Source of the DNA: Mycobacterium cookii
GTDB lineage: Bacteria > Actinomycetota > Actinomycetes > Mycobacteriales > Mycobacteriaceae
Reading direction: 5' to 3'
NCBI RefSeq assembly: GCF_010727945.1
Contig: NZ_AP022569.1
Span: forward strand, 868,001-932,000
Length of the DNA: 64,000 bases
Part shown: positions 31,848 to 33,924 of the stretch, piece after piece
Position numbering within the stretch: the stretch's first letter is position 1
How the letters are laid out: every line of letters begins with the position of its first letter
Position numbers and translations under genes: made by a program
Notes under the pieces: generated by a model
The model's input: only the letters and a program-made list of their open reading frames with translations
The model's database searches: none
What the model was told of the DNA's origin: nothing

Positions 31848-31900
31848 AACGAACAACAGTTGATCGCGGATGAACTTTCTTTGTAGAGGAATGAATAGTC
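31848..31900 (+). promoter_or_regulatory. RegX3/PHO-box-like array A (21-bp spacing)
   Basis: Units CGAACAACAGTT, TGAACTTTCTT and TGAATAGTCGG begin at 31850, 31871 and 31892, i.e. 21 bp apart (two helical turns). The last unit starts 38 bp before CCATCTAA, the upstream edge of the -10 region; array B at 33834 has the identical distance. Confidence 0.5.
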
Positions 31901-31929
31901 GGCATCGTCGTGGCCGATCGCCCGCGCCG

Positions 31930-31940
31930 CCATCTAAGTT
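31930..31940 (+). promoter_or_regulatory. Probable -10 region for the PPE at 32186
   Basis: CCATCTAAGTT followed by CTCAACC closely matches CCATCTAATCT-TTCAACC at 33914. TAAGTT (31935-31940) fits the mycobacterial TANNNT -10. Confidence 0.45.
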
Positions 31941-32185
31941 CTCAACCAGCGACTGTTCAGCGATGAGCATCGGCGCTCAATGTTGTTGACGCTCAGGGTT
32001 ACCGAGTACAGAAAGCACACGTCGTCTGTGGCCACATACCGCGCTCTGCGCAACGCTATCGATCGGGCGGTCGACCACCAGCGCCCGCCGACTGCTGACC
32101 AGCTCATGACAACGCCGCGCACCGCCGCCCCCGCGCGACGGCTGACGGGGCGACGCAACTTTGGCTTGTTTACGGAGGGTTTCTA

Positions 32186-33436
32186 GTGCTTGATTTCGGG
32201 CTGTTGCCGCCGGAGGTCAATTCAGGTCGGATGTATTCCGGTCCCGGTCCTGGGCCGATGCTGGCGGCCTCCGAGGCTTGGGACAGCCTGGCCGCGGAGT
32301 TGGGTTTCGCCGCCGCCGGCTACACCTCAGCTGTTACGGAGCTGACGAGCAACGCGTGGGTAGGCCCGACATCGGTGGCGATGACGGCCGCGGTCACTCC
32401 CTACATCGATTGGATGACCACGACGGGCGCGCAGGCCGAAGAGACGGCCAACCAAGCTCGCGCGGCAGTCGCCGCATACGAGGCGGCGTTCGCGATGACG
32501 GTGCCGCCGCCGGTGATCGCGGCCAACCGTGCGCTGCTGGCCGCTTTGGTGGCAACCAACTTTCTCGGTCAGAACACTCCCGCGATCATGGCCACCGAGG
32601 CCCTGTACATCGAGATGTGGGCACAGGACGCCGCCGCCATGTACGGCTACGCCGGCGCCTCGCAGGTCGCCTCGACCGTGACGCCGTTCACCGCGCCGCC
32701 CCAGACGACCAACCCCGAGGGGGCGAGCAGCCAGGCCAGCGCGGCGGCCAATGCCGCTGCCACGCCGGCCGGCCAAGCGGCGACGGTGGCGCAGAACGCG
32801 GCCTCGATAGCGCCGTCCGCGACCACTCAGACGGCCGCGTCCACCGCGGCGCCCGTGGCGACCCCCCCAACGACGCTGGGCGCCTGGCTCGAGACACTGT
32901 GGCAAAACACCATCACGAACTTCCCGACCGGCGGTTGGGGCGTGGGCCTGACGGGCGGAACGTCGGGCAACCTGAACACGATGCGGCAGATCCTCCAGGC
33001 CTACTTCGCGGTCGGTCTCGCAAACTTCGGCTACGGCATCGGCCAGCAGACGATTACCCCCGCCCAGGCAACGGCACTAGAGCAAGGGCTTGGCTTGATG
33101 CCTAAGCCTGTGGCAGCACTTCCCCCCATCGGCGGCACCGCAGGCGTCAGCGGCGCACCGTTTACGGCCAGCAGCGTGTCGGCCAGTTTGGGCGAGGCGA
33201 ACGCTCTCGGTCGGCTGTCGGTGCCCGCGAGTTGGCAAGGATCGATGCCCACGGAGACGGTGGAGGCCCGGCTGGTCAGCTCCGCGCGGCCTGTCGCGCC
33301 GTCGGCGAATGGAATCCTCAACGGTGTTCCGATGTCGGGGGCCGGCGCCGGTATGGGTCGCCAGGGCACCGCCGCCTACACCGTCAAATACGGGGTCCGG
33401 CACGCCGTGATGACCAAGCCGCCCGCAGGCGGCTGA
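32186..33436 (+). CDS. PPE family protein (SVP subfamily), no adjacent PE partner
   Basis: 416 aa, GTG start after GGAGGGTTTCTA. The PPE domain is standard (FGLLPPEVNSGRMYSG, WVGPTS, NTPAIMATEALYIEMWAQD, MYGYAG). The C-terminal region includes LGAWLETLWQNTITNF and the SVP signature LGRLSVPASWQ. Unlike the flanking PPE genes it has no PE gene immediately upstream, so its dimer partner must come from another locus. It has its own promoter candidate. Confidence 0.92.
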   Translation: MLDFGLLPPEVNSGRMYSGPGPGPMLAASEAWDSLAAELGFAAAGYTSAVTELTSNAWVGPTSVAMTAAVTPYIDWMTTTGAQAEETANQARAAVAAYEAAFAMTVPPPVIAANRALLAALVATNFLGQNTPAIMATEALYIEMWAQDAAAMYGYAGASQVASTVTPFTAPPQTTNPEGASSQASAAANAAATPAGQAATVAQNAASIAPSATTQTAASTAAPVATPPTTLGAWLETLWQNTITNFPTGGWGVGLTGGTSGNLNTMRQILQAYFAVGLANFGYGIGQQTITPAQATALEQGLGLMPKPVAALPPIGGTAGVSGAPFTASSVSASLGEANALGRLSVPASWQGSMPTETVEARLVSSARPVAPSANGILNGVPMSGAGAGMGRQGTAAYTVKYGVRHAVMTKPPAGG

Positions 33437-33831
33437 CGGCGAGCGAGAGTCGATCGACCCGACTCAGACATTGCGCGGCAAGGCATTTCAGGTCCCCTGT
33501 GCGCACCGCACCACCCGCCAACGGAATTGCCCTGTCTTCCGATTCACGGCCCCGCCCCAGCGCTTGCGGTGGGTGGCTCGCGTGTCAAAAGCCTTTTAGG
33601 CGTAGCGATTTCACGCTCGAGGTCCTTGGGCGGCTCGGCGTGCTTACGCCCAACCGAGGGGCAGCCAGCTCCGCGCGATGTACTGAAAGTCCTTGTGGCT
33701 GAGGCCCGCTACCACGATCTGCACGATGCCCAGCTGCAGTCGCGACACCCGCGACGGGCCTGAACCACGGCACGTTTCAGTAGCCGGTCGGATTGAAACG
33801 TTACCGCAGGTGGAAGGTTTGTCGAACGCGG

Positions 33832-33885
33832 GATGAACGGCCGATATCGAGGGGTGAATACTGGTCGTCCAGGCGTGAACAGTTT
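33832..33885 (+). promoter_or_regulatory. RegX3/PHO-box-like array B (21-bp spacing)
   Basis: Units TGAACGGCC, TGAATACTG and TGAACAGTT begin at 33834, 33855 and 33876, spaced exactly 21 bp. The reverse complement of GGTGAAC-type units is GTTCACC, the core of actinobacterial PHO boxes bound by PhoP/RegX3-type regulators. The last unit is 38 bp from CCATCTAA, as in array A. Confidence 0.5.
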
Positions 33886-33913
33886 GGTCGGGAGGGCCTT
33901 TATCCGAGCGTGA

Positions 33914-33924
33914 CCATCTAATCT
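33914..33924 (+). promoter_or_regulatory. Probable -10 region for the PE-PPE pair at 33985
   Basis: CCATCTAATCT with TAATCT at 33919-33924 (TANNNT). The expected start of transcription is near 33931, giving a leader of about 54 bases. Confidence 0.45.

Follow-up and report, generated by a model that had tools for sequence, protein, structure and literature searches.

Response regulators of the OmpR/PhoB type are served by direct repeats: the boxes of Streptomyces PhoP and Escherichia coli PhoB are built of 11-nt repeat units, and the PhoP core of S. coelicolor reads GTTCACC (PMC4415409; this and the other papers cited are represented here by passages of their texts). In mycobacteria, phosphate limitation activates ESX-5 via SenX3/RegX3 (PMC4852179), RegX3 directly binds and regulates esx-5 genes of M. 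tuberculosis (PMC6016242), and pe19 depends on RegX3 (PMC11708021, PMC13192937, PMC5513712). The RegX3 motif has been given as an inverted repeat of GTGAAC (PMC7525159) and as a PHO-like sequence (PMC7884335); the passages of PMC6016242 on esx-5 control give no site sequence, array or spacing. In this study, we analysed a 64,000-nucleotide stretch of the Mycobacterium cookii genome (contig NZ_AP022569.1, positions 868,001 to 932,000, forward strand; hereafter the window, in whose coordinates features are given), which holds an ESX-5 locus, that is, the same locus and the same gene class as those under RegX3 control in M. tuberculosis (PMC6016242). Upstream of its PE/PPE genes lie arrays of TGAAC units at 21-bp steps. 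Like the PhoP and PhoB boxes these arrays are direct repeats, and their unit resembles the reverse complement of GTTCACC; unlike the described boxes (PMC4415409), they lack a clear repeat at the 10-11-bp midpoint.

Two of the arrays are closely matched in layout. Array A (31850..31903, + strand) consists of CGAAC at 31850, TGAAC at 31871 and TGAAT at 31892, and array B (33834..33887, + strand) of TGAAC at 33834, TGAAT at 33855 and TGAAC at 33876; both assignments are based on the letters and on a match to the model R1 described below. A preliminary description of the window had spoken of three TGAAC units per promoter. The positions and the 21-bp steps hold, but the unit at 31850 is CGAAC; an extra TGAAC word starts at 31846, near this imperfect first unit. 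The sequence CCATCTAA begins at 31930 and at 33914, in each case 38 bp past the start of the last unit, as had been reported. The reported TANNNT boxes were likewise found: the predicted -10 box is TAAGTT (31935..31940, +) for array A and TAATCT (33919..33924, +) for array B, each 43 bp from the last unit start, followed by CTCAACC and TTCAACC, respectively. Outside these elements the two promoters have diverged, in agreement with the same description, with 28 of 78 positions identical against 20.8 expected (a value reached in 78 of 2000 shuffles); over 290 bp upstream, 69 positions are identical. No Rfam family matched at the arrays.

For comparison with other species, a scan with eccC5 was carried out, and the best 80 of 138 relatives were kept as loci of other species. 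A first search with the geometry of the window's two arrays found it in seven loci, and these seven together with the window's two seeded an iterative weight matrix. With this matrix, most loci showed the design, as a rule ahead of the first PPE gene and in many cases ahead of a PE/PPE pair, with the consensus TGAACAnTGGTTGGCCnGGAATGAACAGTTGGC; one locus shows four units. Because the matrix had been trained on its own hits, a sequence-only model, R1, was built from 32 of the matrix-picked sites in 30 loci of other species, with the window and two further loci (L001 and L002) excluded. The window's letters are thus absent from R1, but the choice of its training sites is not fully independent, as the window's two arrays were among the nine seeds of the matrix.

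Across the whole 5.3-Mb M. cookii genome, R1 gave exactly three matches with E < 0.01 (150 of 1084 first-look candidates were scored), and all three lie within the ESX-5 locus: array B (33831-33884, E 7.3e-8), array A (31848-31909, E 2.0e-7) and the promoter of the pe19 ortholog (37881-37920, E 5.4e-4). The next-best candidates had E values of 0.096 and 0.78. For M. cookii, then, the regulon dedicated to ESX-5 substrates that had been proposed is supported by the places of all three significant matches, each at an ESX-5 PE/PPE promoter. A stricter three-unit pattern had no match in the genome because the units of the window are imperfect. A looser pattern, a pair of units with one mismatch, had 15 matches, four of which were the ESX-5 arrays. 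The other 11 were taken as chance: nine lie inside open frames, one at the start of an open frame and one, TGAACAGTTTGTTACATGGGCTAAATACT (genome position 3591454-3591482, - strand), in a gap preceding a 308-aa open frame outside ESX-5. The arrays themselves might likewise be put down to chance, as short motifs that happen to align: the units have only five letters, and array A begins with an imperfect one. Against genome-wide E values of 7e-8 and 2e-7 from a model without the window's letters, and against conservation in 40 of 50 further loci, we consider this explanation refuted here.

The third match was overlooked in the preliminary description. Before the pe19 ortholog, TGAACAGTTG occurs at 37890 and 37911, 21 bp apart (37890..37922, + strand). 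The predicted -10 box TATTCT (37964..37969, +) starts 53 bp from the last unit start, which is 43 bp plus one helical turn. Directly upstream of the units lies a direct repeat, GTTACTcggcTGTTACC (37868..37884, +), with GTTAC at 37868 and 37879 in an 11-bp step. Its form, GTTACT-cggc-TGTTACC, agrees with the published MtrA motif, a direct repeat with a 4-bp spacer (PMC6265350, PMC11215152), and is a good example of that box beside the pe19 array. Of 43 upstream regions of PE-esxM, 41 carry at least one TGAACA-like unit, commonly together with a GTTAC element (by eye).

These observations bring in MtrA, or another OmpR-type regulator such as PhoP, as a candidate for binding the arrays. MtrA is the second-best relative among PDB chains of M. 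cookii RegX3 (218 bits, against 467 bits for the RegX3 chain 2oqr, by which the presence of RegX3 in this species is established), and the repeat directly upstream of the pe19 array fits its motif. However, the TGAAC units do not fit the GTnACC core repeated with a 4-bp spacer (PMC6265350, PMC11215152), no GTTAC pair or MtrA repeat was seen by eye at A or B, and in the main texts of the MtrA papers searched PE19 was not found, nor was ESX-5 where it was searched for. We regard such a regulator as an improbable binder of the arrays; from the fit of GTTACTcggcTGTTACC, MtrA is a possible partner at pe19.

Conservation in orthologous loci was evaluated with R1 in the 50 loci outside its training set, some of which are nearly identical to training loci. 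A match with E of at most 0.01 was present in 40, and the 21-bp arrays recur across species, so the unit spacing is kept in orthologous loci. The matches number 57 when the three of the window are counted, and each is on the same strand as eccC5. The ten loci without a match fall into several groups. Two of them (L041 and L046) terminate at or just past eccC5. Six (L037, L040, L062, L072, L073 and L074) carry at least one TGAACA unit before pe19, and L062 also has a degenerate three-unit array. The two others are L033 and L003, the latter from Candidatus Mycobacterium methanotrophicum, whose EccC5 segment is 92% identical to that of the window and near whose eccC5 no array was matched. The element CCATCTAA and the following TCAACC are confined to some loci; the others mostly have CTAATCT or CTAATGT as the box, set in different sequence contexts.

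At the level of the genus, the presence of R1 matches follows that of EccC5. Of 78 genomes searched with stricter filters, 35 carry an EccC5 ortholog (at least 81% identity) and 43 do not; a match was found in 34 of the former and in none of the latter. The one EccC5-bearing genome without a match (G075) is 3.3 Mb in size, and a genome with an EccC5 relative at 74% identity (G043) also had none. Four matches lie away from eccC5: G006:6305321, G016:1980919 (weak, E 0.003), G072:C23 (weak, E 0.005) and one in G015, on a contig that does not carry eccC5. The co-occurrence with EccC5 supports the proposed dedicated regulon. In G006 and G045, a unit pair also precedes a PE/PPE pair distant from eccC5. 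The plain pattern TGAAYA-n15-TGAAYAnT is found in 78 of 198 genomes, partly within genes, against six matches in total for the reversed control.

The geometry of the promoters was assessed in 45 loci, on pairs that TGAAYA-n15-TGAAYAnT had picked out without use of the -10 box and that precede a PE or PPE start. The tool chose 29 of the loci and we chose 16, so the sample is not random, and the species are related. Of 57 distinct pairs, 43 lie 60-620 bp upstream of a PE or PPE start. Of the 14 others, 12 fall within open frames 150 aa or longer, several of which resemble an FmdB-like gene or an antiporter (by eye). A TANNNT box starts 43 bp from the last unit start in 35 of 39 promoters, 44 bp in one and 53 bp in three; two of the latter three carry GTTAC repeats like those of pe19. 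The 21-bp steps and the 43- and 53-bp alternatives are whole helical turns (10.5 bp), which would fit proteins stacked on one face of the DNA.

A further reading is that the promoters share ancestry only, as duplicated PE/PPE promoters whose repeats have no function. The genes are indeed paralogs in one locus, and a weak extra likeness of A and B exists outside the elements (the 28 of 78 positions given above). Nevertheless, the units and their spacing persist in many species while the flanks differ, the 43-bp rule holds over most promoters, and copies stand before a PE/PPE pair elsewhere in two genomes; this explanation is already disfavoured and appears very improbable. As judged from the sequence comparisons, A and B belong to a single conserved promoter module shared by ESX-5 substrate genes.

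The likely ligand of the module was sought through the pst promoters. The PHO box of the mycobacterial pst promoters, which RegX3 controls, is taken here to be a RegX3 operator. Eighteen pst loci, including that of M. cookii, were collected; a recognisable box was present in 11 of the 17 others, and the 22 half-sites of these 11 promoters gave a matrix with the half-site (C)nGTTCA(C/T) in an 11-bp step. The box of M. cookii itself is weaker, with scores of 8.4 and 10.0. Applied to 38 ESX-5 promoters, the matrix found 96 sites with a score of at least 9 (1.5 expected per orientation), and 200 column-permuted matrices on the same promoters gave a mean of 3.25 sites and a maximum of 48. The count of 96 is partly circular: TGAAC units, on which these promoters had been selected, are the core GTTCA read on the other strand. 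A core-free test was hence included, in which only the flanks of exact TGAAC words were scored. The same loci hold 1220 other TGAAC words, whose flanks scored -2.81 on average; the mean was -0.22 for unit 1 (32 units), 0.36 for unit 2 (34 units) and 0.85 for unit 3 (23 units), with p values of 7e-5, 4e-7 and 2e-6, respectively, which are too small because the species are related. The likeness to pst half-sites is strong at pe19, where the flanks of the two units rank in the top 1% and 4.5% among TGAAC words, and weak at A and B. Among tandem pairs in the window at 10, 11, 21, 22, 32 and 33 bp, the three best were the pe19 pair and two pairs of array B.

The arrays and the pst boxes also agree in being tandem same-strand repeats placed just upstream of the -10/-35 region: the last unit lies 43 bp before the -10 box (in 35 of 39 promoters), and the second pst repeat 38 bp before it, a distance counted by hand on two pst loci (L183 and L186). 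By eye, TTAAC was seen 11 bp upstream of a unit in some loci. Elsewhere in the M. cookii genome (about position 4720282), a pstS3-like gene has a PPE-like open frame directly after it, and two copies of GTGAACA, 54 bp apart, lie near its start.

On this sequence evidence, our best explanation, held with a little more than even confidence, is that the arrays are RegX3 operators in a phased arrangement that would switch ESX-5 substrate promoters together. Two to four TGAAC units 21 bp, or two helical turns, apart would be displayed on one DNA face, and a TANNNT -10 box at 43 (or 53) bp would place the end of the array just upstream of the -35 position. A dimer of RegX3, a response regulator of the OmpR/PhoB type, would have its strong half-site in each unit. 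Several dimers could stack side by side and recruit RNA polymerase under phosphate scarcity, with co-induction of the PPE25-like, PE18/PPE26-like and PE19-EsxMN transcripts. For M. cookii we infer that RegX3 binds, that its dimers stack, that they activate transcription and that phosphate is the signal.

Several points weigh against RegX3. All 96 half-sites in the 38 promoters, chosen as they were by TGAAC units, are opposite in orientation to the pst boxes and none has the same orientation, which is unusual for a PhoB-type activator. The pst box has two repeats in an 11-bp step with GTTCA toward the gene, and the ESX-5 arrays have two to four repeats in a 21-bp step with TGAAC toward the gene; the best 11-bp pair in the window scores only 4.6. 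The flanks at 31871, 33834 and 33876 are ordinary: their scores are equalled by 80%, 17% and 41%, respectively, of the other TGAAC words. When same-strand spacings of 8-60 bp were allowed, the pe19 pair was still the best, but pairs at 58, 42 and 17 bp rivalled those of array B. Conservation extends past the PHO half-site, as in ACAnTTGGC of unit 3, which RegX3 alone does not explain. The half-site matrix itself omits six of the 17 other pst loci, two of which were misplaced in extraction and not judged. R1 found no array at other promoters of M. cookii. Finally, other RegX3-bound promoters are described, in the passages concerned, as having no obvious shared motif (PMC3116866).

Some of these points favour a different regulator of PE/PPE substrates, either undescribed or not yet linked to ESX-5, with RegX3 acting elsewhere in the promoters or indirectly. 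The concentration of the arrays at ESX-5 PE/PPE promoters, the orientation and spacing unlike those of pst boxes, the conserved extension, and the flanks of A and B, which do not favour the pst half-site, would all fit such a protein. It is at odds with the pe19 units, which match the pst half-site even outside the core, and with the published RegX3 dependence of pe19 and esx-5 (PMC11708021, PMC6016242), and we consider it rather unlikely. The PHO-box assignment of the preliminary description is plausible, given the presence of RegX3, its published esx-5 binding in M. tuberculosis and the pst-like flanks, which are clear at pe19; it is weakened by the ordinary flanks of A and B, the reversed orientation, the 21-bp step and the extension. 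By orientation, spacing and 3' extension the array is not a standard PHO box, but it may still work like one. More tentatively, and at somewhat less than even confidence, the arrays could form a distinct operator class of helically phased, reversed 21-bp repeats, serving either a devoted ESX-5 PE/PPE regulator or RegX3 in a non-pst geometry, by which substrate supply would be set by one design across slow-growing mycobacteria.

RegX3 control of ESX-5 is already known. This study adds the array itself, together with the rigidity of its geometry, the reversed orientation and the distribution across the genus. A literature search gave no account of a 21-bp array at ESX-5 promoters among the matches listed, with the primary RegX3/ESX-5 papers lying outside its coverage. 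We read the design as an operator geometry that is new and that probably serves a known regulator. At the resolution of single bases, the arrays mark the DNA by which the ESX-5 substrate genes of slow-growing mycobacteria are probably coordinated, and the pe19-esxMN promoter joins the set. The reported link between phosphate starvation and ESX-5 can now be tested in vitro. Binding of RegX3 to the reversed 21-bp arrangement would mean an unusual mode of action for a PhoB-type activator; absence of binding would leave a dedicated ESX-5 regulator to be discovered.

In the window, eccC5 (25894-30084) is followed by a PE/PPE pair, the PPE gene at 32186, the PE/PPE pair from 33985 onward, a ferredoxin gene, a CYP143-like P450 gene, the pe19 ortholog, esxM, esxN and espG5. 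EspG5 was identified by a PDB match; some of the gene names follow the known locus. Downstream of array A is a PPE protein of 416 aa (32186..33436, +) with a predicted leader of about 240 nt. Past array B come a PE protein of 99 aa (33985..34284, +) and a PPE protein of 411 aa (34296..35531, +). The PE protein taken as the pe19 ortholog by position (38014..38313, +) precedes esxM (38480-38776) and esxN (38820-39104).

In other species, 18 of 23 aligned PPE25-like leaders show, by eye, a long RNA hairpin downstream of their predicted transcription start, and after it comes GGTTGCTGAC. An example is L009:14475-14510, a 14-bp hairpin with a z score of -3.6 (-1.9 in L043). No two-sided covariation was found in the predicted pairs, and the hairpin is missing in the window. 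The sequence GATTGCTGAC also occurs 3' of the pe19 promoter in some Mycolicibacter loci. The ferredoxin/CYP143 pair of the window (36128-37646) is located past the PE/PPE genes, with both strands reversed relative to six of 13 compared loci, in which CYP143 (-) and ferredoxin (+) come directly after eccC5. Two M-box magnesium riboswitches (Rfam RF00380; 145 and 147 bits) lie on the + strand at 46706-46892 and 48832-49017, respectively, some 7-10 kb past esxN.
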